Source: a virus. From it: a stretch of 28,662 nt of DNA. This document shows positions 11,994 to 27,870 of this stretch, piece after piece. Made by a program: the position numbers and the translations under genes. How positions within the stretch are numbered: position 1 is the stretch's first letter; each line of letters opens with the position of its first letter. The notes below the pieces were generated by a model, which ran no database searches, was not told the origin of the DNA, and saw only the letters and a program-made list of their open reading frames with translations. The stretch spans positions 1 to 28,662 of the IMG/VR virus record IMGVR_UViG_3300042460_000110. One strand, written 5' to 3'.

Positions 11994-12250
11994 AGAACCA
12001 TACAAAGGTCTACCTCAAAGGGATGGGCTACTCCACAACTGACTTTATACCTTGCGAGGTATGTCAAGGCCAATCGCAAGACATACACCACATAGAATCA
12101 CGCGGAATGGGTGGAAGCAAAATTGCTGATACCATAGAAAACCTGATGGCTCTATGCCGAGCTTGCCACGTTGCATACGGGGATATTAAAGAATGGAAGG
12201 AGCGACTTCAAGCAACACACAACCACCACCTATCAAAAAGAGTTATTTAG
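11990..12250 (+). CDS. HNH endonuclease
   Basis: I use GTG 11990 because it overlaps the methyltransferase stop; TTG 11975 would also be in frame. 86 residues. The HNH fold is clear: C22-x2-C25 (PCEVCQG), DIHHIE (H33, H34), ENLMALC (N51), C56-x2-C59-H60. The structural zinc Cys pairs and the ββα-metal catalytic His/Asn are intact. HNH proteins lie close to terminases in many phages and assist packaging cleavage, so that is likely; a free-standing homing nuclease is the alternative. Confidence 0.82.
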   Translation: MKNHTKVYLKGMGYSTTDFIPCEVCQGQSQDIHHIESRGMGGSKIADTIENLMALCRACHVAYGDIKEWKERLQATHNHHLSKRVI

Positions 12251-12252
12251 TT

Positions 12253-12846
12253 ATGCAAAGAGCAGCAATCGGTACAATCATACCAAACCCCGTAAACCCA
12301 AGAATCATAAAGGATGACAAGTTCAAGAAGCTTGTAAAGTCCATACAGGACTTCCCACAGATGCTTGAGCTGCGCCCAATCGTAGTGGATGGCAATATGG
12401 TAGTGCTTGGGGGGAATATGCGCTTAAAGGCGTGTATTGCGGCAGGACTTAAAGAGGTGCCCATTATCGTGGCAGACCAACTGACCGATGCGCAGAAGGC
12501 TGAGTTTATCATTAAGGACAACGTAGGCTTCGGAGAATGGGATTGGGACTTGCTCGCTAACCAATGGGAGGTAGAAGCTTTGACCGATTGGGGCTTGGAT
12601 GTTGGCGGCTTTGATTTGAACGCATCAGAGTTTGGCGATGACTTTACTTTGCCCGATGGCGATAAGTCACCATTCCAACAAATGACCTTCACGCTTGCGG
12701 ATGAGCAGGCTGCGCAGATTCAGAATGCCATCAGCGATATAAAAGCAACAGACGAGTACAAATACTGTGAGACGTTAGGTAACGAGAACTCTAACGGCAA
12801 TGCTCTCTACTTAATCATTATGCAATGGGCAGAGCAAAAGAAATAA
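12253..12846 (+). CDS. ParB-like (N-terminal/Srx-fold) domain protein
   Basis: The start at ATG 12253, just past the HNH stop, gives MQRAAIGTIIPNPVNPR; the frame extends to 12193 inside the HNH gene. 197 residues. ParB N-terminal signatures: NPVNPRIIKDDKFKKLVKSI (12-31), LRPIVVDGNMVVLGGNMRLKACIAAGL (40-66; GGNMR replaces the usual GGHRR) and VPIIVADQLTDAQKAEFIIKDNVGFGEWDWDLL. The C-terminal third is acidic and distinct. In phages this domain is often paired with DNA-modification enzymes. Here it overlaps the Mom-like gene by 22 nt, supporting a joint role in base modification rather than partition. Confidence 0.75.
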   Translation: MQRAAIGTIIPNPVNPRIIKDDKFKKLVKSIQDFPQMLELRPIVVDGNMVVLGGNMRLKACIAAGLKEVPIIVADQLTDAQKAEFIIKDNVGFGEWDWDLLANQWEVEALTDWGLDVGGFDLNASEFGDDFTLPDGDKSPFQQMTFTLADEQAAQIQNAISDIKATDEYKYCETLGNENSNGNALYLIIMQWAEQKK

Positions 12847-13595
12847 TCGTTAAGGTCATACCAAGCAAAATAGCAAACGAGTTTGTAAGGAAGCACCATT
12901 ACTCAGGTAAGGTAGACCCTCGTTGTTATGTACACTTTGGTGCGTTTTTAGATGATAAGTTGCACGGGGTAATGCAGCTTGGCCCAAGCATAAACAAACA
13001 CGCTTCAAAAAATCTTGTAAAAGACACACATTGGAATGGTTACGTAGAGTTAGCTCGTATGGCTTTTGATAATTATATGCCCAAAAACAGCGAGAGTAGA
13101 TGTATTTCTATTATGATGAGAATGCTTAAAAAGCAAGCTCCGCACATAGAGTGGTTAGTAAGCTATGCGGATGGAGCGCAATGTGGCGATGGGACTATTT
13201 ACAGGGCAAGTGGTTTCTACTTGGTTGATATAAAAAAGAACACAAGTATGTGGAGGCTATCGGACAACAATGTCGTATGCAGTCTTGTTTTCAATTCGGG
13301 GTTCTCTCCAAATAGCAAAAACGACATAGCGAAGAAATACGGAAAAATTGGTGATATGTCTACTTGGTCTTCAAATAGATTTTTAAGACACATCAATGCA
13401 GAGCCTCTTGCGGGCTTTCAATTAAAGTATATTTATTTTTTAAACGATGCTGCAAAAGAAAGATTATCTGTGCCTATTATACCATTTAGCAAAATAGATG
13501 AGATGGGCGCAGGTATGTACAAGGGGCAAAAAATAACCCTCCAAGACAGGAGGGCTACTTTGAGCGAGGAGGTCGATTCGAACGCCACCTCTTAA
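12825..13595 (+). CDS. mom: Mom-family DNA adenine-modification protein
   Basis: 256 residues. Strong family pattern: FVRKHHYSGKV (20-30), CYVHFGAFLDDKLHGVMQLGPSINKH, THWNGYVELARMAF, NSESRCISIMMRMLKKQAPHIEW (88-110), SYADGAQCGDGTIYRASGF (113-131) and, near the end, KMG-like DEMGAGMYKGQKI. Phage Mu Mom, a GNAT-fold enzyme, converts adenine in DNA to N6-methylcarbamoyl-adenine and blocks restriction. By eye this gene is more AT-rich than its neighbours and uses more A/T-ending codons, which suggests separate acquisition. Its last 33 nt lie in a strongly structured region. The Mom assignment is confident; the exact modification here is inferred. Confidence 0.85.
   Translation: MGRAKEIIVKVIPSKIANEFVRKHHYSGKVDPRCYVHFGAFLDDKLHGVMQLGPSINKHASKNLVKDTHWNGYVELARMAFDNYMPKNSESRCISIMMRMLKKQAPHIEWLVSYADGAQCGDGTIYRASGFYLVDIKKNTSMWRLSDNNVVCSLVFNSGFSPNSKNDIAKKYGKIGDMSTWSSNRFLRHINAEPLAGFQLKYIYFLNDAAKERLSVPIIPFSKIDEMGAGMYKGQKITLQDRRATLSEEVDSNATS
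13537..13554. repeat. Perfect hairpin near the end of mom
   Basis: CCCTCC-AAGACA-GGAGGG is a 6-bp perfect inverted repeat with a 6-nt loop within the mom reading frame. It lies just upstream of the tRNA-like structured element. It has no T-run, so it is not a standard terminator. Confidence 0.6.
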
Positions 13596-13659: not shown

Positions 13660-14007
13660 ATGGACAAAACTGAACAACATAAAAAGGCAATGCTTGATGC
13701 TTTGGAAAAATCCTTAGGCGTAGTTACATCAGCAGCTAAGGCGGTGGGCGTAGGTCGTACGACTCACTACCTATGGCTGCAAGAGGACAAAGAATACAAA
13801 GCAGCAGTCGAAGAACTATCAGACGTAGCCATTGACTTCGCAGAGAGCCAACTGCACAAGCAGATAAAGGAGGGCAACTCCACCGCTACTATCTTTTTTC
13901 TAAAGACCAAAGGCAAGAAGCGTGGATACGTGGAACGCCAAGAGGTAGACGTATCTTCGGGCAAGCTATTTCAAATTGAGGTGCTTGGCGAAGATTCAGA
14001 CCAATAA
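13660..14007 (+). CDS. terS: Terminase small subunit-like protein
   Basis: 115 residues. The N-terminal helix-turn-helix (VVTSAAKAVGVGRTTHYLWLQEDKEYKAAV, about 21-50) fits the DNA-recognition domain of phage small terminases. A helical central part (DFAESQLHKQIKEGNSTATIFFLKTKGKKRGYVERQEV) is typical of this family's oligomerisation region. It lies directly before the large terminase and overlaps it by 23 nt. Role: recognising phage DNA for packaging. The preceding A-rich leader (AACAAACAAACAAATGG) is a good Bacteroidetes start context. Confidence 0.8.
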   Translation: MDKTEQHKKAMLDALEKSLGVVTSAAKAVGVGRTTHYLWLQEDKEYKAAVEELSDVAIDFAESQLHKQIKEGNSTATIFFLKTKGKKRGYVERQEVDVSSGKLFQIEVLGEDSDQ

Positions 14008-15142
14008 AGTATATAACCACCTAAAGCGCAGCGACAAGAAGATAGTCGTTGAGCAGGGCGGTACTCGTAGCGGAAAGACTTACAACATCCTGCTATGGGT
14101 GATTTTCTATTATAGCACACGAGAAACTAATAAGACCATCACCATCTGCCGCAAGACGTTCCCTTCGCTTCGTGCTTCGGTGATGCGTGACTTCTTTGAG
14201 ATACTGCGCAACCACGACCTGTACAGTGAAAGCTTCCACAACAGGTCAAGCCACGAGTATTATCTGAATGGCAACCTTGTGGAGTTTATCAGCCTTGACC
14301 AACCGCAAAAGATACGGGGGCGCAAGAGGGACTTGCTATACATCAACGAGGCTAACGAACTAACCTACGAGGATTGGCAGCAGCTTATCCTGCGTACCGA
14401 AGGCAGGGCAATCCTTGACTACAACCCTTCTGATGCGTTCCATTGGATTTACGATAAGGTGGTGACCCGTGATGACTGCGAGTTTCATCAGACCACCTAC
14501 CTTGATAACCCGTTCCTTGATAGCAGCATCCGAAATGAAATAGAACGCTTGCGTGATACCGATAGCGACTATTGGAGAATCTACGGACTTGGAGAACGTG
14601 GGATGAGCAGAGCCACCATCTTCCAATACGGGCAAGGAGAGATACCAACGGATGCCACGCTCTTATGTCACGGGATGGACTTCGGGTACACCAACGACCC
14701 AACGGCACTTGTGGCAGTTTACAAGTCGGGAGACAATCTGTATGTGGATGAGCTTATCTACCGAACGGGTATGACCAACCCCGACATCAGCAACGTATTG
14801 AACTCTCTTGGTCTTGATAGAAGGACTGAGGTGTTTGCTGACTCTGCAGAGCCTAAAAGTATTGAGGAGCTGCATCGTATGGGATGGAACGTGAAACCCA
14901 CGCAGAAGGGCGCAGATAGCGTCATAGTGGGCATTGACGTGCTGAAGCGGCACAAGCTATTCGTAACCCCACGAAGCAGCAACCTAATCAAGGAACTTCA
15001 AAACTACAAATGGGTAGAAGACAAGAACGGCAACCTGCTCAACAAACCCATAGACGCATTCAACCACGCCATAGATGCGCTGCGCTATGCAACGTATAAC
15101 AAACTCAGCCGCCCTAACTTTGGCAGGTATGCCATACGCTAA
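13985..15142 (+). CDS. terL: Terminase large subunit
   Basis: There is no ATG near the start of the frame. TTG 13985 gives MAKIQTNKVYNHL, the expected N-terminus, with TTG 13976 as an alternative. 385 residues. ATPase: Walker A GGTRSGKT (25-32), Walker B DLLYINEAN (catalytic E122). Nuclease: HGMDFGY (D232), VFADSAEP (D286) and DAFNHAIDALRYA (D358, D364). The protein powers DNA translocation into the prohead and cuts the concatemer. At 385 aa it is a compact terminase of the Terminase_3/6 type. Expression from a TTG inside terS suggests translational coupling. Confidence 0.93.
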   Translation: MAKIQTNKVYNHLKRSDKKIVVEQGGTRSGKTYNILLWVIFYYSTRETNKTITICRKTFPSLRASVMRDFFEILRNHDLYSESFHNRSSHEYYLNGNLVEFISLDQPQKIRGRKRDLLYINEANELTYEDWQQLILRTEGRAILDYNPSDAFHWIYDKVVTRDDCEFHQTTYLDNPFLDSSIRNEIERLRDTDSDYWRIYGLGERGMSRATIFQYGQGEIPTDATLLCHGMDFGYTNDPTALVAVYKSGDNLYVDELIYRTGMTNPDISNVLNSLGLDRRTEVFADSAEPKSIEELHRMGWNVKPTQKGADSVIVGIDVLKRHKLFVTPRSSNLIKELQNYKWVEDKNGNLLNKPIDAFNHAIDALRYATYNKLSRPNFGRYAIR

Positions 15143-15145
15143 AAC

Positions 15146-15158
15146 TAAAAGGTTATTT
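15146..15158 (+). promoter_or_regulatory. Shared late leader motif TAAAAGGTTATTT (copy 1)
   Basis: The 13-nt TAAAAGGTTATTT, followed by an AT-rich spacer and ATG 15164, recurs at 25768-25780 before ATG 25788. Both precede structural genes. It could be a late promoter element or a translation signal. Confidence 0.4.
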
Positions 15159-15163
15159 TAATA

Positions 15164-15877
15164 ATGGAACTAAAGGTAATTGTACCCACCGACCTGTCGG
15201 AGATAACGCTTGACCAATACCAACGCTTCGTGCGCTTGGATGGCGATGAGGAGTTCCTCAGTCACAAGATGCTTGAGATATTCTGCGGAGTGCCTCTTGC
15301 CAAGTTGCCCAATGTAAAGTTCAAAAGCCTCGCAGGGGTAGTCAACCGACTCAATGGTATGTTTGGCACCAAGCCATCCCTCAAGCAAGAGTTCAATCTT
15401 GGTGGGCAGACCTTCGGATTCATTCCAAGCATTGAGGACATTAGCTTTGGCGAGTACGTTGACCTTGACAATTATATGGCAGACACGCTGAACCTGCACA
15501 ATACGATGGCGGTTTTGTACCGACCCATCACTCAGCGAGCAGGCAAGCGATACGACATTGAGCCATACGAATCGGCAGAGAAGTATAGCGACTTAATGAA
15601 GCAGGCTCCGATGGATGTTGTATTAGGCGCAACGCTTTTTTTTTATCGTTTAGGAAACGACTTGTTGACCGCTACAATGAACTCTTTGGAGAAGCAGAAA
15701 ATGAGTACTCCACAGAATCACAATTCGGAAGGAAGTGGGGATGGTACTCCTCTTTCTACCACCTTGCTAAAGGAGATGTCACAAAGTTTGAGGATGTGGG
15801 AAGATTGGGCGTTCACCAATGCCTCACCCTTCTCACGTTTGACAAAGAGCGAAATGACATTGAACGAAAGCAATTAG
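15164..15877 (+). CDS. Putative tail-assembly chaperone, 0-frame form
   Basis: 237 residues from ATG 15164. The first 160 look like one folded domain (KVIVPTDLSEITLDQYQRF, LGGQTFGFIPSIEDISFGEYVDLDNYM, AVLYRPITQRAGKRYDIEPYE). At residues 158-160 (LFF) the frame crosses nine T. The 0-frame C-terminus (YRLGNDLLTATMNSLEKQKM ... TTLLKEMSQSLRMW) is helical and plausible. The position at the head of the tail genes, ahead of the tape measure, and the slippery run fit the lambda G/GT type of tail chaperone. Similar N-terminal domains are common and unannotated in Bacteroidetes phages. The chaperone role is inferred. Confidence 0.65.
   Translation: MELKVIVPTDLSEITLDQYQRFVRLDGDEEFLSHKMLEIFCGVPLAKLPNVKFKSLAGVVNRLNGMFGTKPSLKQEFNLGGQTFGFIPSIEDISFGEYVDLDNYMADTLNLHNTMAVLYRPITQRAGKRYDIEPYESAEKYSDLMKQAPMDVVLGATLFFYRLGNDLLTATMNSLEKQKMSTPQNHNSEGSGDGTPLSTTLLKEMSQSLRMWEDWAFTNASPFSRLTKSEMTLNESN
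15636..15644 (+). promoter_or_regulatory. Slippery T9 run, putative -1 frameshift site
   Basis: C-TTT-TTT-TTT-A contains the ideal heptamer T-TTT-TTT in the 0 frame (CTT TTT TTT TAT). A -1 slip continues in a frame open to 15894. No obvious downstream pseudoknot was worked out by hand. Confidence 0.6.
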
Positions 15878-15894
15878 AAAAACTAAAGAAATGA
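15643..15894 (+). CDS. -1 frame C-terminal part of the tail-chaperone fusion
   Basis: This frame is open from 15589 to 15894 but has no ATG, GTG or TTG before the slippery run, so it can only be reached by frameshifting. After slipping it adds 83 residues (LSFRKRLVDRYNELFGEAE ... FGRKWGWYSSFYHLAKGDV, VHQCLTLLTFDKERNDIERKQLEKLKK), a highly protein-like sequence with Trp/Tyr clusters and a final coiled helix. Fused to the first 160 residues it makes a 243-aa isoform, close in length to the 237-aa 0-frame product but with a different C-terminus. Its TGA overlaps the next ATG (ATGA), as real stops do throughout this genome. Confidence 0.6.
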   Translation, partial: LSFRKRLVDRYNELFGEAENEYSTESQFGRKWGWYSSFYHLAKGDVTKFEDVGRLGVHQCLTLLTFDKERNDIERKQLEKLKK

Positions 15895-16358
15895 GGCAGT
15901 TTTACGACATCACCACCAAGCTAAAAGACACCCTTGAAGCCAATAGCCAAGTCAGCGTGGTAACGACAGGGGATATTTTTGACATAGACCTAAACAAGCA
16001 GACCATCTTTCCGCTATCGCATATCATCATCAACCAAGCAACATTCGAAGGACAGATAGTACGGATGAATGTAAGCATCGTGTGTATGGACTTGGTAGAT
16101 GAAACCAAAGAGAATCCTCGCTTACAGGCGGAGCCGTTCTATGGGGTGAGCAACGAGCAGAATATCTTGAACACGCAGCTCGCAGTAATTAACGATGTGG
16201 TGACAGAACTCCGCAGGGGTACTCTGTACACCGACCTTTATCAGTTGGATGGCACCGCACAATGCGTTCCCTTTAGCGAGAGGTTTGAGAACCTGCTTGC
16301 AGGGTGGACTGCTACCTTTGATGTGCTGCTTGCAAACACCGAGATAAGTACCTGCTAA
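15891..16358 (+). CDS. Tail terminator/completion-like protein
   Basis: 155 residues. It begins MRQFYDITTKLKDTLEANSQ and contains VVTTGDIFDIDLNKQTIFPLSHIIINQATF, FYGVSNEQNILNTQLAVINDVVTELRRGTLYTD and ERFENLLAGWTATFDVLL. This alternating alpha/beta layout fits the tail terminator (gpU/gp16-like) or minor tail family that caps the tail tube. The start overlaps the -1 frame chaperone stop and its stop is two bases before the next gene. Assignment rests on pattern and position, not on unambiguous motifs. Confidence 0.6.
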   Translation: MRQFYDITTKLKDTLEANSQVSVVTTGDIFDIDLNKQTIFPLSHIIINQATFEGQIVRMNVSIVCMDLVDETKENPRLQAEPFYGVSNEQNILNTQLAVINDVVTELRRGTLYTDLYQLDGTAQCVPFSERFENLLAGWTATFDVLLANTEISTC

Positions 16359-16359
16359 A

Positions 16360-16878
16360 ATGGCACGAGAGGATTTGCTTGCTTCGGTGCTTGTTAAGTT
16401 TGGCAAATATGTCATTCAACAGGCGAGGACTAATCTCTCTCGCAAGAAGCAAAACGTATCGGGCAATCTATACAAGTCTCTAAAATATAATATCTACTAT
16501 TCAAATAATAAGTTCTCCCTGACGTTCTCAATGGATGAGTATGGTGAGTACCAAGACAAGGGAGTAAGGGGCGCAAAGAGCACCTATTCAAGCGCAGGGA
16601 GGTCTCCCTACAAGTACACCAACAAGATGCCACCCGTAAGTGCGTTTAGTCAATGGGCTATCAAGAAGGGATTGGATGGCGTACGAAATAAGAAGGGGCA
16701 GTTTGTAAAACGCAAGAGCCTTCAGTTTGCATTAGCACGGAGCATCTACGAGAAAGGAATCCCTGCAACTAAATTCTTCAGCACCCCTTTTAATATAGCG
16801 TTCAAAAATCTACCTACTGAATTAGTAGAGGCGTTCAAACTAACAGAACAAGACTTCAAAGCATTTACCACAAAATGA
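16360..16878 (+). CDS. Neck/head-tail joining protein, HK97 gp10-like
   Basis: 172 residues, basic. FGKYVIQQARTNLSRKKQNVSGNLYKSLKY matches the N-terminal helix plus 'SGxLxxSL' pattern of HK97 gp10-type tail-completion/neck proteins. The middle has FSMDEYGEYQDKGVRGAKS, also typical. The C-terminal half has FALARSIYEKGIPATKFFSTPF. It probably sits at the head-tail interface. It overlaps the next gene by four bases. Confidence 0.65.
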   Translation: MAREDLLASVLVKFGKYVIQQARTNLSRKKQNVSGNLYKSLKYNIYYSNNKFSLTFSMDEYGEYQDKGVRGAKSTYSSAGRSPYKYTNKMPPVSAFSQWAIKKGLDGVRNKKGQFVKRKSLQFALARSIYEKGIPATKFFSTPFNIAFKNLPTELVEAFKLTEQDFKAFTTK

Positions 16879-18101
16879 GTACACCTACTGCATCCACCCC
16901 AAGCAGCCTTTCAATGGGGCGCAGCCCTTTATTTGTCACGGGCAAGAACAACGCCCTTGCTGCTGACCAACTTGATTCAATGACGCTTCAGCTAAAGATT
17001 TACAATGGCCTAAAGGCATCGCCCCCTGCTACTGCAAACTATTCTTTAAGTAAGAATTATTCTATCAACGAGGTCATCAACTTTGAGGTGAGCGACCTTG
17101 TACGCTCGGAGTTCTACCACGACTTCAGCGTATGGAACGACATAGGCTACACGCAGAGTCCGCAGGGTGAGGCGTTGTGGGTTTCACCTATTGGCGATTG
17201 GGTCTATTCAAATAACGGAGCCGCACCTGAATCAGCGGTATGGGCAACAGGCAGCTCTTTGGCGTTTCTTGCTACCGATGGATGGGCAACGCGTGATAAC
17301 ATAGCCCCCGTTGCGGTATCACAACCTGTGCTTGCCACAAGCCGCAATAGGCAGGTGCTTGTAGGTAACTACGAATCCCTTGCGATTAACAATAGCAGCA
17401 CAAATGCCCTTGCTAAAATTGTCATTACTTGGCAGAGTGGTGATTCTGATGATTTCTATGTGAGTGCCGTAAGCGCAGCACCACCCGACAGAACAACAAA
17501 CAATAGCCAAAACCTTGTAATCTACGCGGGAGTCGGCCCTGCAAACCTTGAGAACAATCCTTATTTACCTACGGAGATAAAGCCAAGCGAGCAACCTAAT
17601 GGTGGCATAGGGCAGTACTACGATGTGATTCTAAAGAACGCAGGCAATACCACACTTGCAACGGTGAGGTACTACGTTGAGTGTGAGGTAAAGTACACGC
17701 CTGTACAGGTAGCGTTCATCAACCGCTTTGGCGTTGCTGACTTTATCACGTTCTTTAAGCGCAGCGATGAGAGCGGAACTTTCACGCAGGACTCCTACCA
17801 AAAGAGCATCTACAACGATGGCTTCACCACCCCTTCATTAGAGGTAGGCAAGTACCAATCATACAACGTCAACTCTCGCAACACACTAACTCTAAACACA
17901 GGGTTCGTTGACCAAGACTACGATGAAACGATTGAGGACATTCTGATGAGCGAGTATGTCGCGGTTTATACTAATAGTAATTGGGTGAGTGTTGTTCCTC
18001 AGCGTGGAACTATGGAGTACCAAAAGCAAGTAAACACAAAACTTATCAATTACACAATGTTATTTGACTTCGGCTTTGATGAGCGCAGCTTGGTACGATG
18101 A
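16875..18101 (+). CDS. Tail structural protein, beta-rich, 408 aa
   Basis: 408 residues, almost entirely predicted beta (SPLFVTGKNNALAADQLDSMTLQLKIYNG, ATVRYYVECEVKYTPVQVAFINRFGVADFITFFKRSDE). No signal peptide or catalytic residues. It is ATGA-coupled to both neighbours. Position between the neck protein and the large baseplate-like protein suggests a tail or distal-tail component. Proteins of this shape are common but unnamed in Bacteroidetes phages. Confidence 0.6.
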   Translation: MSTPTASTPSSLSMGRSPLFVTGKNNALAADQLDSMTLQLKIYNGLKASPPATANYSLSKNYSINEVINFEVSDLVRSEFYHDFSVWNDIGYTQSPQGEALWVSPIGDWVYSNNGAAPESAVWATGSSLAFLATDGWATRDNIAPVAVSQPVLATSRNRQVLVGNYESLAINNSSTNALAKIVITWQSGDSDDFYVSAVSAAPPDRTTNNSQNLVIYAGVGPANLENNPYLPTEIKPSEQPNGGIGQYYDVILKNAGNTTLATVRYYVECEVKYTPVQVAFINRFGVADFITFFKRSDESGTFTQDSYQKSIYNDGFTTPSLEVGKYQSYNVNSRNTLTLNTGFVDQDYDETIEDILMSEYVAVYTNSNWVSVVPQRGTMEYQKQVNTKLINYTMLFDFGFDERSLVR

Positions 18102-20227
18102 ACAAGGTAGATATTTACGTCAACGACTTCCGTCTTGACCTGTTTGATGATGAGGAGATAAGCATCAACCTGTCGGTGCAGAACGTGCAGGACATCTCAA
18201 AGGTGTTTACGGACTTTACGCAGGGGTTCACCATTCCTGCAAGCCCACGCAATAACGAGATACTTCAGCATTACTACAATGCTAACATCACAAGTTCAGT
18301 TATCACTACCGAGACCGCAGGTAATCCCGTTTGGAATGCCATCGGCATCACTTGGAATACTTTTAACACGGTTTGGAATGCAGGTGCAACAACCACGAGC
18401 GTAGCCAATACGTTTGATGGTAGGCTAAGGCAACCTGCAATGATTGAAATAAACTCTATCCCATTCCGCTCAGGCGTTATTGAGGTAGAGGGTGTGCAGC
18501 TAAAAGGCACAGAGCCATATGCGTACACCTTGACGTTCTATGGGGATTTGGTAACGCTGAGTGATTTGTTTGGCGAGGACTACCTGTACGACCTTGACTT
18601 TGCAGAGTTCAATCACGCTTACACCGATACTGAGGTATTTAACAAGTTAACAACTGATGATGACACGGGCTTGTTTTATCCGTTATGCAGCCCTGTAAAG
18701 AATTGGTTTTATCAGAGCGCAAGTGGCGCAGGTGCTGACAATGAGAACAACATTGCTCACAAAACAGGAGGCGTGGGATTGCGTGGCATCCGCTACTATG
18801 AGTTAAAGCCCGCGCTAAAGGTTACGGCTATTCTTGATGCGATGGAGCAGAAGTATGGCATCACGTTTACAGGAGCATTCTTGGCTGCTACTCCGTTTGT
18901 TGATTTGTCGCTTTGGCTGCATCGGTTTGAGGGGTATCTATTTGCAGGAGGTAACGACATTGCTTATCAGTTAATAAATATGAACCGAAACACAGGTAGC
19001 GGTTCGCAGTTTAATTTAACTACCGATACTTGGGCAGTTGTGGAAAGCAAGCAATATGACTTACAGATTACAATGCAAAATGTAAGCGAGGACTATGAGC
19101 TTGCGGTTTTCCGTAATGGAGTCCTTGACTTTACGACATTGGTTGATGCTCACGCTGCTTCTTCTGTAACTACAAATATGGCTGCTTTGTCGTTTACCGC
19201 AGGAGATGCGGTGCAGTTGTTTATACGTTCGCAGACTCGTGAATCAATGACTTACCAATGCACGGACTATTCGGGTATTGATAGCGATACGGCTGCAAGT
19301 GATTTTTCAGTAGACCAAACTGCATCTGCAGCCTACTCTTTTATATTAGTAGTGCAAGATATAATGCCCGAAATAAAGGTCAAGGACTTCTTGGCAGGCA
19401 TTATTAGGATGTACAATATGGTGATTGTGCCAAGCGGCACAAGTTTCTTGCTTCAGCCTTTGGATGATTGGTATGCAGCAGGAGCAACAAACGATTTGCA
19501 AGACTACATTGACATCACCGAGTATGATGTAAACCGCCCTGCGCTATACCGAGAGATTGAGTATAAGTACCAAGAGACAGAGCAGATACTCGGCTTTCAA
19601 TATCAACGCTTATATGGTCAAGGCTTTGGTGACCTGCGAACCTTCTTTACATTTGATGGTGAGCAGTTTCTTGTTGAGGTGCCGTTTGAATGTCCGCTAT
19701 TTGAGAGGCTGACAGACCTGCATACAAACACACTTACCAACGTACTCGTTTACAAAAGCATCACAAGCGAAGCAAACGAAGATGGCACATTCAACCCTTA
19801 TTTGGGAGCGCCTGTCTTATTCTATGGCTACTTTGATGACTATGACTTGTCCGCAAATTCTTTGACATTTGTAAACTCAGATGGCACTCACGAACAAGTG
19901 AACATTGCGTGGTACGCAAATACTTCCAACCGCTATCAAAGTGCAGGGGCATCGCATTCTATTTGCTTTGGAGTTGACAATGACCCCTATCATTTGGAGA
20001 CCATAAACCGCAGCCTCTACAATACGGAGTGGGTTGACTACATCACCGACCTATACAACCGAACCCGTAGGATTTACTCGGTTGAAGCAGTCTTGCCATT
20101 GGGTAAGATGGCAACGCTTGAGATGAACGACACGATTATTTGGAACAACAACAAGTACGTCATCAACAACGTGCAGTTGAACCTAACCACAGGCCGAGCA
20201 ACATTTGAACTCCTCAACGTAGTATGA
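18098..20227 (+). CDS. Large tail/baseplate-like structural protein, 709 aa
   Basis: It starts MNKVDIYVNDFRLDLFDDEEISINLSVQNVQDISKVFTDFTQGFTIPAS, a beta-rich domain found at the N-terminus of Bacteroidetes phage tail-tip proteins, then GRLRQPAMIEINSIPFRSGVIEVEGVQLK. The centre contains a jelly-roll-like stretch (YDLQITMQNVSEDYELAVFRNG) and the C-terminus ends in a conserved-looking VINNVQLNLTTGRATFELLNV. Size and place before the tape measure suggest a tail-tip hub or adsorption scaffold. Function by position only. Confidence 0.6.
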   Translation: MNKVDIYVNDFRLDLFDDEEISINLSVQNVQDISKVFTDFTQGFTIPASPRNNEILQHYYNANITSSVITTETAGNPVWNAIGITWNTFNTVWNAGATTTSVANTFDGRLRQPAMIEINSIPFRSGVIEVEGVQLKGTEPYAYTLTFYGDLVTLSDLFGEDYLYDLDFAEFNHAYTDTEVFNKLTTDDDTGLFYPLCSPVKNWFYQSASGAGADNENNIAHKTGGVGLRGIRYYELKPALKVTAILDAMEQKYGITFTGAFLAATPFVDLSLWLHRFEGYLFAGGNDIAYQLINMNRNTGSGSQFNLTTDTWAVVESKQYDLQITMQNVSEDYELAVFRNGVLDFTTLVDAHAASSVTTNMAALSFTAGDAVQLFIRSQTRESMTYQCTDYSGIDSDTAASDFSVDQTASAAYSFILVVQDIMPEIKVKDFLAGIIRMYNMVIVPSGTSFLLQPLDDWYAAGATNDLQDYIDITEYDVNRPALYREIEYKYQETEQILGFQYQRLYGQGFGDLRTFFTFDGEQFLVEVPFECPLFERLTDLHTNTLTNVLVYKSITSEANEDGTFNPYLGAPVLFYGYFDDYDLSANSLTFVNSDGTHEQVNIAWYANTSNRYQSAGASHSICFGVDNDPYHLETINRSLYNTEWVDYITDLYNRTRRIYSVEAVLPLGKMATLEMNDTIIWNNNKYVINNVQLNLTTGRATFELLNVV

Positions 20228-20361
20228 AGACAGGATATTTAAGTTATTTAATAGAACTCTTGCAATTAGAGGAATGGCGCAAGGAGTCAGAGGCGATTGA
20301 TATTGCCAAAGGCAAGTACGCAATTCCCAAGACTTGGGATGAGTTCTTAAAACGCAGATAA
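20224..20361 (+). CDS. Small helical protein before the tape measure, 45 aa
   Basis: It is ATGA-coupled to the upstream gene and TAATG-coupled to the tape measure. Sequence MKTGYLSYLIELLQLEEWRKE, then AIDIAKGKYAIPKTWDEFLKRR: a short helical, charged protein. In other phages a chaperone product sits just before the tape measure, so a chaperone-like or structural accessory role is possible. No family identified. Confidence 0.6.
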   Translation: MKTGYLSYLIELLQLEEWRKESEAIDIAKGKYAIPKTWDEFLKRR

Positions 20362-21980
20362 TGGCAGTAGTAGAAACAATTAAGATTGAGGCTGACGGAA
20401 GTGGGTTTGAGCAAACAGTTAACGACCTTAACGAAGGCGTCAAAGACCTAAACAAAAGCGTTAAAGCCGTAGGCACTACTGCGGAGAAATCATTTGATAA
20501 GGCCGAGAAAGCCGTTCAAGGCGTAGAGAAGGAAGTTAAAGAGACGGGCAAGAGTGTTAAAGATTTAATTAAAAACATCACCGCTCTTGGTCTTATAACC
20601 AAACTCACCGACGCGGCAAGTGAGGCATTCACGGGCAATCAAAAAGTAGTTGATAAACTAAACACGGGATTGTTCTCCGCGCAAATCCTAATCAGCAATC
20701 TGATTGATTACTTTAGTGGCGGTGGTGGAAGTTTAGCGGATGCGTTTAAGGGTGTTACCGACCAAGCGGCTGAATTAGTAGACCTGCAAAACAAATCTAA
20801 GCTTGCGGAAGTTGAACGAATCAAAATTCAATTTCAATATCAAATTCTTGCGGAGGAGCAACGGCAGTTGCGTGATGATGAATTATCAAGTATTGATGAA
20901 CGCATCAGCGCTAATGATGAACTTAATGCAGTTCTTGTAGAACAATTAGCCGCAGAAAATGAAATGGTTCAGGCAAAAATTGCCGCAGCACAGGCTGAAG
21001 TCAATCGCTTGGATAACATTGAAAACCAAGTTGCTCTTGCTCAAGCATTAACGGAGGAGACTGATATACAAGAGCGTATTCTTAGTCAGACATCAGAATA
21101 CTTGACAAACCAACGTGGTCTTGAGCGTGAGCGTTTAGAATTGCAAAAACAAATCAACGAGCGTAAAGCCATTGAAGCTGAAACGGGTGTTAAGCAGTTT
21201 GAGGATGAGCGGGCGCAAGATATGGTCATTTATGGCTTCAAAGTAAGAACTGAAAAAGAGCTTGCTGAAATAGAGTATGAGAGATACTACAATGGCTATC
21301 AGGTACGCAAAGATTTTCTGATTCAGCAAATTCAAGACGCACAAGATGCAGGTCTAACCGAGAACGCCCAATACCAAACTCTACTTGATGAGAAGTATCA
21401 ATTAGATGTTGAGTATTTTGAAAGGACACGAGACTTAGACAATCAACGCAGAGAGTTTAATTTACAGTCAGTAAGTGATGCAGTAAAAACAACGGGTCAA
21501 GCCATTGATGCAATATCTGCTTTCTATGAGGCAAGGTATGCTAACGATGAGAAGAACGCAGAGAAAGCGTTTAACATACAAAAGAAACTATCTATCGCTC
21601 AAGCCGTAGTACAGGGGGTAGAGAGTGTGGTGAATGCTTATGCAACGGCTCAAAAATCACCGCTCACAAGCGTGTTCCCTGCTTACCCAATAGTGGCGGC
21701 AGGCGCAGCCGCTGCATTCTCAGCAAGCCAAGTGGCACTAATAGGCAATCAGCAGTTCCAATCTGCATCGGCAGGCGGTTCTTCAAGCTACGATTCAGGC
21801 GCAGCAGTACCATCACAACCTGCTAATTTTAACATCGTATCAAAAAGCGGTAACAACATCTTAATGGAAAGCATCGCCTCACAATTCCAAAAGCCTATGA
21901 AGGCATACGTTGTAAGTGGCGAGGTTATTTCAGGAACGCAACTTGACCGCAGGCGCATCCGCACCGCAACATTTGGATAA
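20361..21980 (+). CDS. Tape measure-like tail protein
   Basis: 539 residues, mainly long helices and coiled coil (VNDLNEGVKDLNKSVKAVGTTAEKSFDKAEKAVQGVEKEVKETGKS split across residues 19-65; long Glu/Gln/Arg-rich coil 150-370). A small Ala-rich hydrophobic segment (VFPAYPIVAAGAAAAFSASQVALIG) near the C-terminus is typical of tape measures. The C-terminus is a small Ser/Gly-rich region ending in SGEVISGTQLDRRRIRTATFG. By the usual ~1.5 A per residue, tail length would be near 80 nm. This gene looks more AT-rich than the baseplate genes upstream. Confidence 0.8.
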   Translation: MAVVETIKIEADGSGFEQTVNDLNEGVKDLNKSVKAVGTTAEKSFDKAEKAVQGVEKEVKETGKSVKDLIKNITALGLITKLTDAASEAFTGNQKVVDKLNTGLFSAQILISNLIDYFSGGGGSLADAFKGVTDQAAELVDLQNKSKLAEVERIKIQFQYQILAEEQRQLRDDELSSIDERISANDELNAVLVEQLAAENEMVQAKIAAAQAEVNRLDNIENQVALAQALTEETDIQERILSQTSEYLTNQRGLERERLELQKQINERKAIEAETGVKQFEDERAQDMVIYGFKVRTEKELAEIEYERYYNGYQVRKDFLIQQIQDAQDAGLTENAQYQTLLDEKYQLDVEYFERTRDLDNQRREFNLQSVSDAVKTTGQAIDAISAFYEARYANDEKNAEKAFNIQKKLSIAQAVVQGVESVVNAYATAQKSPLTSVFPAYPIVAAGAAAAFSASQVALIGNQQFQSASAGGSSSYDSGAAVPSQPANFNIVSKSGNNILMESIASQFQKPMKAYVVSGEVISGTQLDRRRIRTATFG

Positions 21981-21981
21981 T

Positions 21982-22914
21982 ATGAAACTGATAGAACTAA
22001 TACTTGATGAAACAATGCTGCTCACGGGCATTGATGCAATCTCCCTTGTAGAACACCCTGCTATTGAGGAGGACTTCATTGCGCTCAACTCACAAAGGGT
22101 GGAGTTCGCTACGCAGAGCGATGAGAAGCGCATCCTTATGGGAGCAGCACTCGTACCAAACAAACCCATCTACCGAGCAGAAGGGCAAGAGGAGTTCTAT
22201 GTGTACTTCAGCGAAGCCACCATCCGCAAAGCGAGTGAGATGTTCTTCCAAAAGAGCAAGCAGAACAACGCTACGCTTGAACACGAAGTAGGCATCAACG
22301 GCCTCACGGTTGTGGAGTCTTGGATTATTGAAGATGAGGTACACGACAAGAGCAAGAAGTACGGCTTTGATTTGCCCGTAGGTACTTGGATGGTATCTAT
22401 GAAAGTTAACAACCCCGAGATTTGGACAAACTTTGTCAAGACAGGAAAGGTCAAAGGCTTCTCTATTGAGGGATACTTTGTGGACAAGCTAAACCTTGCC
22501 AAGCAAGAGATGGCGCAGATAGAGGAGCAAGAAGCAGCGTTGATGCTTGCACAGATTGTGGCTATCATAAAAAGAGATGGCCGCAAGAAGTCGGGAACAC
22601 GCACCGAGATGGAGTCGTTCTCTGACTACCCCGATGCGGTAAAGAACAACGCCAAGCGTGGCATTGAACTAAACGAGAAGAACGGCAACAAGTGTGCAAC
22701 GCCTGTCGGCAAGGTAAGGGCGCAGCAGCTCGCACAGGGCAAGCCTGTAAGCGTAGAGACCATCACACGGATGTACTCATACCTATCAAGAGCCGAAGAA
22801 TACTACGATGAGAATGACACGCAAGCCTGCGGCACAATATCATTCCTTCTATGGGGTGGTCTTGCAGGTAAGCGTTGGGCAGAATCTAAACTAAAAGAAC
22901 TTAACAATGAATAG
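21982..22914 (+). CDS. Prohead protease (XkdF/Peptidase_S78_2-like) with C-terminal domain
   Basis: The ATG at 21982 follows the tape-measure stop; the frame extends upstream only inside that gene. 310 residues. Protease core: PNKPIYRAEGQEEFYVYFSE, ATLEHEVGINGLTVVESWIIED (H101), WTNFVKTGKVKGFSIEGYF (S161), fitting the His/Ser pair of phage S78-type maturation proteases. Residues ~205-310 form a separate domain (SFSDYPDAVKNNAKRGIELNE, CATPVGKVRAQQLAQGKPVS, RMYSYLSRAEEYYD, GGLAGKRWAESKL) often fused to phage head proteins. Role: cleaving scaffold and capsid precursors. The gene precedes scaffold and capsid genes. Confidence 0.8.
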   Translation: MKLIELILDETMLLTGIDAISLVEHPAIEEDFIALNSQRVEFATQSDEKRILMGAALVPNKPIYRAEGQEEFYVYFSEATIRKASEMFFQKSKQNNATLEHEVGINGLTVVESWIIEDEVHDKSKKYGFDLPVGTWMVSMKVNNPEIWTNFVKTGKVKGFSIEGYFVDKLNLAKQEMAQIEEQEAALMLAQIVAIIKRDGRKKSGTRTEMESFSDYPDAVKNNAKRGIELNEKNGNKCATPVGKVRAQQLAQGKPVSVETITRMYSYLSRAEEYYDENDTQACGTISFLLWGGLAGKRWAESKLKELNNE

Positions 22915-23068
22915 ACCACAAAAACTCCCTGTTGCTTCCCCACGAGGTGGAAGGCGTGGGTGCTTATGCCCCGACAATACCTACAAGTCCAACTGCTGCG
23001 ATGGCTCCCTGCAAGCGCAGGGTGTTGGCTCACTTGTCGGACAAGGAACCGTAGTTATTAATCCCTAA
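22907..23068 (+). CDS. Small Cys-rich protein, 53 aa
   Basis: The ATG overlaps the protease by 8 nt. Sequence MNRPQKLPVASPRGGRRGCLC, then PDNTYKSNCCDGSLQAQGVGSLVGQGTVV. The pattern RxCLCxDxTYxxxCCxG is one I associate with a small recurrent family in Bacteroidetes phage structural regions. Four Cys may bind metal or form disulfides. Possibly a minor virion protein; function unknown. Confidence 0.65.
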   Translation: MNRPQKLPVASPRGGRRGCLCPDNTYKSNCCDGSLQAQGVGSLVGQGTVVINP

Positions 23069-23108
23069 AAATGTTACAAATAATCAAAACCCCTTTAATT
23101 AGTTAGAT

Positions 23109-23687
23109 ATGAAAGCAAACAATATCCTAAACCGCATCCTTGCCGAACTGTCCTCCATCCGTGAGGTTAAGTTTGAGCAAATGACACTTGAGAACGGAGC
23201 CGTTCTTGAGGCAGAATCATTTGAAGCAGGCAACGAAGTATTTGTCCTTAGTGGCGAAGACCGCGTTGCTGCTCCTGTTGGCGAACACCTCCTCGAAGAT
23301 GGTCGTGTACTCGTCATCACCGAAGAAGGCGTTATCGCTGAAATCAAAGAAGCCACCGCTGAAGCAGAGGTAGAAGTTGAGGTTGAGGCCGAAGCAGCTA
23401 CTGAACTTGCTGATATGCCAATGGCAGAAGAAGCCCCTGCGGTTGTTGCAATCATTGAGAAAGTTCTCGAGGAGATTGCAATGATGCGCGAAGAAATGAA
23501 AGGGATGCGTGATGAGATGGGCGGTTACGCCAAGAAGGAGGAGATGGCTGCGGTTAAAGCAGAACTATCTGCCGCACCTGCTGCGAAAGCCATCAAACAT
23601 AATCCCGAAACAAAGCAAGTCCAAAAGATGAGTTCTAACCGCCCCGAAAGAGCGATTGACCGAGTCCTTGCACGAATCAACAACTAA
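23109..23687 (+). CDS. Capsid scaffolding-like protein
   Basis: 192 residues directly upstream of the major capsid gene. It is strongly acidic in the middle (Glu/Ala/Val-rich, about 105-135), followed by a coiled-coil-like helix (VVAIIEKVLEEIAMMREEMKGMRDEMGGYAKKEEMAAVKAEL) and a basic tail (RPERAIDRVLARINN). This layout (acidic, helical, basic C-terminus that would bind capsid) is typical of phage scaffolds. The N-terminal ILNRILAELSSIREVKFEQMTLENGAVLEAESFEAG segment looks folded. Probably cleaved by the protease encoded upstream. Confidence 0.7.
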   Translation: MKANNILNRILAELSSIREVKFEQMTLENGAVLEAESFEAGNEVFVLSGEDRVAAPVGEHLLEDGRVLVITEEGVIAEIKEATAEAEVEVEVEAEAATELADMPMAEEAPAVVAIIEKVLEEIAMMREEMKGMRDEMGGYAKKEEMAAVKAELSAAPAAKAIKHNPETKQVQKMSSNRPERAIDRVLARINN

Positions 23688-23697
23688 CAAATAAACA

Positions 23698-24624
23698 ATG
23701 GCTACAACTACTTCAATCACTACTTCGTACGCAGGTCAATTTGCCTCGAAGTACATCTCTGCTGCTCTTTTGAGCGCAAACACGCTTGACAAAGGTCTCA
23801 TTGAGATTCTTCCAAACGTAAACTACAAAACCACCTTGCAGAAGGTGAACACCAACGACATCGTAAAAGATGGTACTTGTGATTTCGATGCAACTTCTAC
23901 CTTGACTTTGACCGACCGCGTTCTTGCCGTTGAGCCTTTTCAGGTAAACTTGCAGCTTTGCAAGAAGGACTACTACTCATCTTGGATTGGTGGTCAGATG
24001 GGATTCTCTGCTTACGATAGCATCCCTGCTTCTTTCGCTGACTTCCTTATCGCTCACGTTGCTGCAAAGACTTCACAGAAGATTGAGCAGAACATTTGGA
24101 ACGGTAACGCTGCTTCAGCAGGTGAGTTCTCGGGCTTCCTTTCATTGATGACTGCTGACTCAGACGTTATTGACGTAACCGCTACCACCGTGACTGCTGC
24201 TAACGTAATCACAGAGCTTGGTAAAGTTGTAGATGCCATTCCTTCAGCACTTTACGGTAAGGAGGATTTGACTATTTTCGTGCCACAAAACGTAGCGAAG
24301 GCTTATGTCCGCGCACTTGGTGGATTCGGAACTTCAGGTCTTGGAGCAAATGGTGTTGACAATAAAGGCACAATGTGGTACGGACAGGGCGATATGTTCT
24401 TTGACGGCATCCGCATCGGAATGTGTAACGGTCTTCCTTCTAACAAGATGGTCGCAGGTCAAACAAGCAACTTGTTCTTCGGAACAGGGCTTCTTGATGA
24501 GCGCAACGAAGTTCGTGTTCTTGATATGGCTGACCTTGACGGTTCAGACAACATCCGCGTAATCCTTCGCTTCTTCGCAGGAGTTCAGTACGGTATCGGT
24601 TCAGACGTAGTTCTTTACTCGTAA
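23698..24624 (+). CDS. Major capsid protein, HK97-fold type
   Basis: 308 residues, after scaffold and before a strong terminator. It starts MATTTSITTSYAGQFASKYISAALLSANTLDKGLIEILPNV, has an extended arm (TTLQKVNTNDIVKDGTCDFDATSTLTLTDRVLAVEPFQVNLQLCKKDY), and later PASFADFLIAHVAAKTSQKIEQNIWNG and VQYGIGSDVVLYS. This matches Bacteroidetes phage capsid proteins I recognise. Codon use looks different from neighbours, with many C/T-ending preferred codons (AAC, TTC, GAC), as expected for a highly expressed gene. The leader AACAAATAAACAATGG is a strong A-rich start context. No N-terminal scaffold domain, so the scaffold is separate. Confidence 0.85.
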   Translation: MATTTSITTSYAGQFASKYISAALLSANTLDKGLIEILPNVNYKTTLQKVNTNDIVKDGTCDFDATSTLTLTDRVLAVEPFQVNLQLCKKDYYSSWIGGQMGFSAYDSIPASFADFLIAHVAAKTSQKIEQNIWNGNAASAGEFSGFLSLMTADSDVIDVTATTVTAANVITELGKVVDAIPSALYGKEDLTIFVPQNVAKAYVRALGGFGTSGLGANGVDNKGTMWYGQGDMFFDGIRIGMCNGLPSNKMVAGQTSNLFFGTGLLDERNEVRVLDMADLDGSDNIRVILRFFAGVQYGIGSDVVLYS

Positions 24625-24642
24625 TCCGAGCTAATGTAAATC

Positions 24643-24679
24643 AAGAGGGGGCTTGGGCTATGTCCTCGCCCTCTTTTTT
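24643..24679 (+). terminator. Intrinsic terminator after the capsid gene
   Basis: AAGAGGG (24643-24649) pairs with CCCTCTT (24669-24675) across a 19-nt loop that can pair further, followed by a T-run to 24679. It would insulate capsid expression from the tail tube gene. Confidence 0.75.
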
Positions 24680-24702
24680 AATTCTAATAAAACAAAGAAA
24701 CA

Positions 24703-25251
24703 ATGGCTTGTGATTTAACTAAAGGCAGGGCAGTACCCTGTAAAGACGTAGTAGGTGGCATTCGTGCCGTGTACTTTGTAGACTTCGGTGACTTGGGTAC
24801 GATTACCCTCACCAACGATGAGATTACCAACATCAGTGGTACTTTCTCTGCTTACCAATACCTTGTGAAAGGCAATAGCTCTTTCGAGCAGACCTTCAAC
24901 TCAAGCCGTGATAATGGCACAACCTTCTTCACGCAGACGTTGAATTTGACGTTGACCAAACTCACAAAGGAGGACAACAAAGAATTGAAGCTGCTTGCTT
25001 ATGGCCGCCCTTATGTTGTGGTGCAAGACTACAACGGCAACGCATTCCTTATGGGTATGAACAACGGTGCTGAAGTAACGGGTGGAACGATTGTAACGGG
25101 TGCTGCAATGGGTGACCTATCGGGTTACACTTTGACAATGGAGGGGCAGGAGACAATGCCTGCTAACTTCATCGCAGGTGCTACTACTGCCAATCCATTC
25201 GCAGGGCTTGCAGGTGCTAACGACACGATTGTCGTAGGTTCAAACTCGTAA
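24703..25251 (+). CDS. Major tail tube-like protein
   Basis: 182 residues. MACDLTKGRAVPCKDVVGGIRAVYFVDFGDLGTITL, then SFEQTFNSSRDNGTTFFTQTLNLTLTKLTKEDNKELKLLAYGRPYVVVQDYNGN, all beta-prone; ends in a Gly/Ala/Thr-rich segment. This is a common pattern in Bacteroidetes siphovirus tail tube proteins. It lies just after the capsid and shares its codon preference, as a second very abundant virion protein would. The A-rich leader (ACAAAGAAACAATGG) resembles the capsid leader. Confidence in 'tail tube' rests on pattern and abundance signs. Confidence 0.7.
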   Translation: MACDLTKGRAVPCKDVVGGIRAVYFVDFGDLGTITLTNDEITNISGTFSAYQYLVKGNSSFEQTFNSSRDNGTTFFTQTLNLTLTKLTKEDNKELKLLAYGRPYVVVQDYNGNAFLMGMNNGAEVTGGTIVTGAAMGDLSGYTLTMEGQETMPANFIAGATTANPFAGLAGANDTIVVGSNS

Positions 25252-25258
25252 ATGAATT

Positions 25259-25278
25259 AGGGGGGCGCAAGCCCCCTT
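25259..25278 (+). terminator. Hairpin after the tail tube gene
   Basis: GGGGGC-GCAA-GCCCCC forms a perfect six-GC stem with a GNRA loop, followed by TTATATTTA rather than a pure T-run. It probably acts as a terminator, mRNA stabiliser or attenuator between the tail tube and the next gene. Confidence 0.7.
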
Positions 25279-25293
25279 ATATTTACAAATAAA

Positions 25294-25668
25294 ATGAGTA
25301 AACAAATTTTTTCCAAAATCGCCAAAATTGGCGAGGAGATACGTTCAATCAACAAAATAGAATTTGCATCGCAAGACCTTCGCCCTAATGCGGAGAAAAT
25401 CAGTACTGCAATTCTTGATATGGGATTCTTTAATGAATTGCAACGAGTAGAATCAGCAATGTCAACTTCAATCAAGAAGTCAATGTCATTGCGTGACTTA
25501 GTAGCAAAGAACTTAAATGAGTTTGAGGCTTCCGTCAAAGAATTGGGAATCAACCCAAGTGAATCAGAAAACTACAAGTTTGCAACTCGTGAACTTCGTT
25601 TGCTTGATAGCAATATCGCTGATGCTCGAAAGCGTCTTGCTGCGCTTGAAAGTGCTATGGGTTCATAA
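25294..25668 (+). CDS. Hypothetical helical structural protein, 124 aa
   Basis: Almost wholly helical and coiled-coil-like (ELQRVESAMSTSIKKSMSLRDLVAKNLNEFEASVKELGI, RELRLLDSNIADARKRLAALESAM). More AT-rich than the flanking tail tube and portal genes. Bounded by hairpins on both sides, so it may be transcribed at a distinct level. No family recognised; possibly a virion, scaffold-like or chaperone protein. Confidence 0.65.
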   Translation: MSKQIFSKIAKIGEEIRSINKIEFASQDLRPNAEKISTAILDMGFFNELQRVESAMSTSIKKSMSLRDLVAKNLNEFEASVKELGINPSESENYKFATRELRLLDSNIADARKRLAALESAMGS

Positions 25669-25685
25669 AAGTTTGGTATATTATT

Positions 25686-25710
25686 TTTAGCAATTCTAAA
25701 GATTGCTAAA
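25686..25710. repeat. Perfect inverted repeat in the intergenic region
   Basis: TTTAGCAA (25686-25693) and TTGCTAAA (25703-25710) form an 8-bp perfect stem around a 9-nt loop. It sits between the end of the gene above and the next hairpin. A protein-binding site or structured mRNA end is possible. Confidence 0.6.
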
Positions 25711-25724
25711 GTGATAAAATAGTT

Positions 25725-25745
25725 AAGGGGGCGTAAGCCCCTTTT
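25725..25745 (+). terminator. Intrinsic terminator before the 111-aa gene
   Basis: GGGGC-GTAA-GCCCC with flanking AAG/TTT pairing forms a strong hairpin with a GNRA loop, followed by four T and an AT-rich tail. It resembles the hairpin at 25259 in sequence and loop type. Confidence 0.75.
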
Positions 25746-25767
25746 CTATTTTCAAACAAATCGGAAT

Positions 25768-25780
25768 TAAAAGGTTATTT
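25768..25780 (+). promoter_or_regulatory. Shared late leader motif TAAAAGGTTATTT (copy 2)
   Basis: Identical over 13 nt to the copy at 15146-15158. ATG 25788 follows after 7 nt. It lies right after a terminator, so a promoter function for the portal operon is possible, though no TAnnTTTG box is obvious. Confidence 0.4.
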
Positions 25781-25787
25781 AATTAAG

Positions 25788-26123
25788 ATGCACATCCTTC
25801 AAGTATCAGCCTCACCACAAGCGATTGTAATCATACCACGCACGTTCCCTGCGAGCGTTACGATTGCGCTGATTGATGAATCAACAAACACCACCGCAAC
25901 ACCTGCGGTTACTGCTGCCTCTGCTGATGGTTTTATGACCCTTACAGGCACGTTTAGCCTTGTCAATAATAGATTCTATGGCTTGAAGGTATTCGCATCG
26001 GGAAATCTAATATACAGAGACAGGGTATTCGTAACTTCGCAAACAGATTACGAGAAATTTACGGTGAACCAAAACGTCTACACCGAAGAAACAAGCTATG
26101 ACAATGAGTACATCATCATCTAA
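25788..26123 (+). CDS. Small beta-rich structural protein, 111 aa
   Basis: MHILQVSASPQAIVIIPRTFPASVTIALIDEST, then FMTLTGTFSLVNNRFYGLKVFASGNLIYRDRVFVTSQT: an Ig-like or beta-sandwich pattern. It overlaps the portal gene by 26 nt. Similar small proteins lie just before portal genes in Bacteroidetes phages. Possibly a head decoration or minor head protein; no defining motif. Confidence 0.65.
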   Translation: MHILQVSASPQAIVIIPRTFPASVTIALIDESTNTTATPAVTAASADGFMTLTGTFSLVNNRFYGLKVFASGNLIYRDRVFVTSQTDYEKFTVNQNVYTEETSYDNEYIII

Positions 26124-27867: not shown

Positions 27868-27870
27868 GAT

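Follow-up and report, generated by a model that had tools for sequence, protein, structure and literature searches.

Probable programmed -1 recoding at a conserved run of nine T's in a phage late gene with two selected, dual-coded C-terminal ends

A gene from the late region of a stretch of viral DNA 28,662 nucleotides long (here ‘the window’; IMG/VR record IMGVR_UViG_3300042460_000110, positions 1 to 28,662) possesses an in-frame run of nine T's (T9), after which both the 0 frame and the -1 frame are coding and under purifying selection. It is fairly likely that a tail-module gene here undergoes programmed -1 recoding, from which would come two isoforms that share an N-terminal part and have different, dual-coded ends, that is, an arrangement like that of lambda G and GT. 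That tail chaperones make use of -1 recoding is well established (PMC5009743), and for two HK97-like chaperones slips have been measured at 6% and 7% (PMC3711429). The features considered are as follows, with positions as counted within the window.

13976..15142, + strand: terminase large subunit, directly upstream of the recoded gene
15164..15877, + strand: 0-frame open reading frame, 237 aa, with residues 1-160 common to the -1 product
15636..15644, + strand: T9 run, a sequence feature read in the 0 frame as CTT TTT TTT TAT
15637-15643, + strand: slippery heptamer T TTT TTT, inside the T9 run
15643..15894, + strand: -1 tail, what would be read beyond a slip (83 aa and a TGA); predicted to be all-helical, no start codon in the -1 frame
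15643..15877, + strand: dual-coded stretch of about 78 codons, under purifying selection in both frames as judged against single-coded controls
15891..16358, + strand: next gene, 155 aa, phrog_30964, its ATG overlapping the -1 stop
20361..21980, + strand: probable tape measure protein, 539 aa, with weak matches to phrog_9483 (tape measure; 1e-4) and phrog_21537 (virion structural; 3e-5)
24703: tail tube candidate, called by the look of the sequence only

The first-pass annotation had pointed out a gene with a T run and a start-less -1 frame, and in this it was correct. The heptamer is indeed found within CTT TTT TTT TAT, and the -1 frame is open from 15589 to 15894, lacks ATG, GTG and TTG between its upstream stop and the WGWY motif, and ends in a TGA which overlaps the ATG of the next gene at 15891. 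As read from the sequence, the -1 product comes to 160 + 83 = 243 aa. The approximately 80 dual-coded residues which had been proposed correspond to the roughly 78 codons just listed, with both frames selected. The 0-frame product matches phrog_32199 (unknown function) with an E of 8e-19.

The proposed process would be as follows. From one start in the tail-module gene two proteins would be made, sharing residues 1-160. Most product would stay in the 0 frame, acquiring 77 more residues, which are predicted to form a helical hairpin. A minority would instead move one base backwards at T TTT TTT and gain 83 residues in the -1 frame, these being predicted to be all-helical, such that about 78 codons would be read in both frames, with both readings selected. 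Were the two to work as lambda G and GT do, the tape measure protein would be coated by the abundant form, while the rare one would bring in the tail tube protein. Here we infer that slippage occurs, and likewise its frequency, which of the two forms is abundant, and the role as chaperone.

Relatives were fetched using the 0-frame protein or profiles and, as added to lessen bias, using the -1 segment of Nonlabens phage P12024L, with the peptide patterns employed for fetching loci permitting TTC as well as TTT. Searches by 0-frame protein or profile contributed the best 80 of 106, 80 of at least 583, 80 of 174, and 80 of 157 relatives; the P12024L -1 segment contributed the best 80 of 345; and further matches were taken whole (63 of 63 and 1 of 1). 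The result is 412 sequences, i.e., the window plus 411 loci among the matches listed, where loci in part are the same contigs with other flanks and where the 80 loci from the P12024L -1 segment overlap partly with the first set of 254. Passing through an automatic WGW filter were 390 of the 412, and the other 22 loci, which were inspected individually, are left out of the 234 distinct complete genes and of the tree (47 clusters at 80% identity, midpoint rooting). The first set consists of 254 sequences (window plus 253 loci), of which 239 are complete and 164 distinct, these reducing to 101 representatives at 97%. Also from the first set are 39 path-disjoint, that is, independent pairs of 0.12-0.5 four-fold divergence.

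Every one of the 412 sequences, the window included and among the matches listed, has nine or more consecutive T's in frame, with the codon being the same throughout, that is, a conserved in-frame heptamer of the X XXY YYZ type that is associated with frameshift cassettes. None of them lacks the slippery run, on whose conservation among relatives the suggestion of a -1 slip had been made to depend. Within the first set the run is T9 in the same phase in 253 of 254 sequences and an in-frame T10 in one (among the matches listed); among the loci fetched by the P12024L -1 segment (best 80 of 345) it is T9 in 77 of 80 and T10 in 3; and over the distinct complete genes among the matches listed it is T9 in 231 of 234 and T10 in 3, with NTT TTT TTT invariant. 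Runs of nine or more T's number just 105 across the 101 representative loci (584 kb). Nor is TTT TTT simply a matter of codon preference, because upstream of the run TTT is used 352 times versus 451 times for TTC. The cultured Nonlabens phages P12024L and P12024S display T9 at the same codon with only about 30% protein identity, and the run therefore is no assembly artefact.

A downstream stimulatory RNA structure is a common though not obligatory component of programmed -1 frameshift cassettes. That feature was not found here, with single folds of 10 relatives revealing no conserved RNA stimulator (z-scores of -1.6 to 1.4) and with the consensus fold of 30 sequences reaching -0.99 kcal/mol and showing no compensatory changes. 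A hairpin picked out visually was set aside, one of its pairs being broken in 12 of the 30 with no double-sided change. The finding of no conserved stimulator in these folds is also what might be seen if slippage were instead, or in addition, by RNA polymerase, as it transcribes T9 to produce extra-U mRNAs, with the same two proteins resulting. This is possible, if on the unlikely side. Among the sequences listed the run is never under nine T's, and in bacteria transcription slips at stretches of nine A or T (PMC5009743). The length of T9 is not independent evidence, however, because the heptamer together with its flanking codons (NTT before, TAT or TGG after) already requires nine.

Whether by ribosome or polymerase, the pair of isoforms would probably consist of lambda G/GT-like tail assembly chaperones, a label which is based on context because no homology to known chaperones was found. 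For the recoded gene, Pfam and PHROGs run on the window's proteins yielded no usable match to a chaperone or other functional family, nor did Pfam for 77 0-frame members and 62 -1 tails, PHROGs for the -1 tails, or, with both predicted models, the PDB by profile, Foldseek, and VIA-align. Candidates set aside are DUF7785 (1 of 77 members only, E 0.00085), phrog_10626 ‘DNA binding protein’ (weak, 9 of 62 -1 tails, best E 0.007), and matches by VIA-align (Z up to 6.9) to what is a generic helix hairpin. The -1 tails do match phrog_38404 (16 of 62, best E 6e-44), which carries no function. As modeled by AlphaFold2, the 0-frame product (77 sequences; mean pLDDT 79) has a predicted helix at 150-181 passing through the slip point and a second one, of moderate confidence, at 194-220, with residues 182-193 and 227-237 having a pLDDT below 50. 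The -1 tail modeled alone (62 sequences; pLDDT 78, pTM 0.58) is all helical. The 0-frame fold is matched by 33 viral models, with E up to 0.001, none of them with a named function.

As for that context, the recoded gene sits in the late region, near the tape measure candidate. It is followed by the phrog_30964 gene in 44 of the 45 clusters with enough sequence, with the gene after that being phrog_29822, as present in 32 of 41 clusters and as having, in P12024L, a weak neck/tail-completion match. The 539-aa open reading frame at 20361 is probably, and in part provisionally, identified as the tape measure protein; its P12024L counterpart matches phrog_9483 at 6e-12. From 13976 to 28371 the late genes of the window are in an unusual order, i.e., terminase, recoded gene, tape measure candidate, protease (XkdF-like), capsid, tail tube candidate, and portal.

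With regard to the G/GT comparison, two products with a common N-terminus would be obtained from a -1 slip in a tail-module gene, as judged solely by sequence, but the gene is not located between those for tail tube and tape measure and instead adjoins terminase. Of the earlier proposal of a tail-chaperone frameshift, what stands is the slip site, the start-less tail, and dual selection, while the chaperone identity obtained no family or structure match. It could be, then, that the recoding is real and the protein some other late protein, e.g., one of packaging or of the neck, as would be in keeping with the adjoining terminase (in the window, and with an upstream terminase match in 34 of 44 clusters) as well as with the finding of no chaperone homology in Pfam, PHROGs or the PDB. 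This we view as rather unlikely, given a tape measure candidate along with a neck-like gene downstream, in the same orientation. In addition, we know of no other class of late phage gene with a -1 slip that is so widely conserved.

Programmed -1 recoding, to return to the favored explanation, has a bearing on how the -1 tail might be expressed at all. Between the upstream stop and WGWY, the -1 frame is without ATG, GTG or TTG in 50 of the 101 representatives, has only GTG or TTG in 46, and has ATG in 5, one of the latter being P12024L. Thus there is a conserved, selected -1 reading frame which in half of representatives (50 of 101) has no start of its own, as typifies a frameshift cassette. 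Stops in the -1 frame of relatives would speak against its use, and none was seen within the first 75 codons of the -1 tail among the matches listed. The possibility that the -1 segment might be a separate gene with its own start finds a partial example in P12024L and P12024S, where there is an ATG and an annotation as two genes, yet even there T9 is kept. The +1 frame has a stop five codons after the run in all 101 representatives, perhaps forced by the double use of TTTAGG. Where almost all other loci from the P12024L -1 segment have TTTAGG, the locus L357 has TTTCGTG; together with L383 and L400 it makes up a divergent branch having a 0-frame tail of 41 codons.

Purifying selection, which had been suggested as a check on each frame, was seen for both, with each frame conserved beyond what the other alone would cause. 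In terms of codon positions, variation in the upstream part of the gene falls on position 3, in line with expectation. The three positions hardly differ in the stretch just beyond the run, and in the rest of the dual region 0-frame position 2, corresponding to the third position of the -1 frame, is the most variable. Relative to the upstream rate, the four-fold sites of the -1 frame change over the 39 pairs at 0.08 and 0.27 in the opening two of seven segments and at 0.32-0.61 in the next five, with those of the 0 frame at 0.06-0.39 across all seven. The low synonymous rate in the last part of the dual region may in part reflect the nearby start of the next gene. With a simulated null in which one protein is kept and its synonymous sites change at the upstream rate, the -1 frame alone predicts a 0-frame identity of 0.735/0.775/0.787, against 0.902/0.845/0.887 observed (39 pairs), and the 0 frame alone predicts a -1 identity of 0.742/0.767/0.775, against 0.872/0.917/0.969 observed. 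The pairs of this test, and of its repeat described below, use only codons before both 0-frame stops, such that zero stop counts are by construction and are no evidence.

Among single-coded controls, off-frame identity falls 0.012-0.036 below the null (25 pairs for terminase, 39 for the upstream part, and 35 for the next gene), and the identity test therefore does not lean towards finding overlap. Four-fold sites in the next gene (15891-16358 and homologues), moreover, change faster than those in the recoded gene's upstream part, by a factor of 1.36 (550 seen versus 404.1 expected over 35 pairs), and the upstream baseline therefore is if anything low. At the level of sequence, then, the slip site, the missing -1 start and selection in both frames can be viewed as established.

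The 0-frame tail varies in length. It consists of 18-27 codons in 3 of the 47 clusters (the P12024 branch), 41 codons in another 3 (which form a second early branch when the tree is rooted at its midpoint), 56-67 codons in 28, and 74-85 codons in 13, these last comprising the wider clade around the window and, in addition, two single tips, L144 and L270. Near the window, L314 and L317 nonetheless have 0-frame tails which end at 63-64 codons. The range over the 234 distinct complete genes among the matches listed is 18-86 codons, while the -1 tail is of 82-94 codons throughout; in 41 of 47 clusters, that is, a 0-frame tail of 56-85 codons lies over a -1 tail of 82-94. The near-equal isoform lengths noted earlier for the window (237 versus 243 aa) therefore hold there and do not extend to the family as a whole. 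Similarly, the swapping of C-termini that was proposed is nearly complete in part of the family, whereas in other lineages there is instead a lambda-like extension. Judging from one midpoint-rooted tree, the overlap would seem to be the older feature, with near equality in the window having come about later.

Given such variability, it might be supposed that what counts is the -1 tail plus a short piece of 0-frame tail, with the 0 frame past about 20 codons passively open, an overlap that serves no purpose. Six clusters, including that of P12024L, do end the 0 frame at 18-41 codons with the arrangement unharmed, and past the first stretch it is the -1 frame that chiefly shapes divergence by codon position. 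Against this, the chance of the 0 frame being open beyond codon 22, for as long as it is in fact open, given the -1 protein has a median of 0.026 over 98 representatives and is 0.007 for the window, with the converse chance, of the -1 frame staying open, being 0.0015 (101 representatives, stop simulation). The identity test was repeated as well under a null that does not permit new stops. In this version the excess for the 0 frame is +0.155 (39 of 39 pairs) in the first of four sub-regions, small at +0.038 (27 of 39) in the linker (codons 22-41), and +0.086 (31 of 38) and +0.079 (30 of 36) in the last two, all with intervals above zero. A passively open 0 frame consequently is very improbable. 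Homopolymers are typical places for sequencing or assembly errors, though an error or decayed gene at this one, which would be next to inconceivable, is already refuted by the conservation, i.e., the same run in 412 of 412 among the matches listed, including two isolate genomes, and both frames conserved.

With textbook tail-chaperone frameshifts, the two forms differ by an extension that follows a few shared codons. The recoding proposed here resembles lambda G/GT, HK97 gp13/gp13-14, and P2 E/E+E' in that a tail gene carries the -1 slip, the two products have their N-terminal part in common, and the second part needs no start of its own. It differs in the extent of overlap, with at most 20 codons of lambda G, at most 16 of HK97 gp13, and about 6 of P2 E after its annotated slip lying in an open -1 frame, versus 56-85 here (41 of 47 clusters). 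It differs also in location, the chaperone gene of lambda and of HK97 being found between those for tail tube and tape measure while here the gene adjoins terminase, and it has no detectable homology to the lambda, HK97 or P2 chaperones in the family and structure searches made. Closer are genes 40 and 41 of P12024L and P12024S (phrog_32199), i.e., a homologous gene with the same T9 codon and a homologous -1 tail. These are annotated as two separate genes, with the T9 slip site inside gene 40 (L082, L083 4001-4695), a 0-frame tail of only 27 codons, and the ATG inside the -1 segment. Arterivirus nsp2TF and the cardiovirus transframe protein likewise involve internal recoding and a dual-coded C-terminal part (PMC5009743). 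The viruses, sites, proteins and stimulators are unrelated, however, such that the likeness is one of principle only.

The slip trick, that is, is known from phage tail assembly, and it is the length of the doubly used stretch that is unusual; a literature search limited to open-licence papers did not find this dual-coded arrangement. There is a slightly better than even prospect that a widespread phage lineage obtains its two tail-assembly isoforms by swapping whole dual-coded C-terminal domains in this way, as opposed to lengthening a short form, with the selected helical domain of the abundant form overprinted on that of the rare form and with a 0-frame tail ranging over 18-86 codons while the slip site stays fixed. 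One stretch with two selected alternative endings would represent deep, naturally varying overprinting in a DNA phage. With the slip site fixed and the length of overlap varying by lineage, the order of events is then open to study. Annotation would be mended as well, since gene callers provide only the 0-frame form, or instead two genes as in P12024L and P12024S.

Elsewhere in the window, 12193-12846 encodes a ParB-like/methyltransferase-related protein, after which comes a DNA modification protein of the Mom-like kind (12825-13595; phrog_1384, E 3e-47). This hints that the DNA of this phage may be modified.
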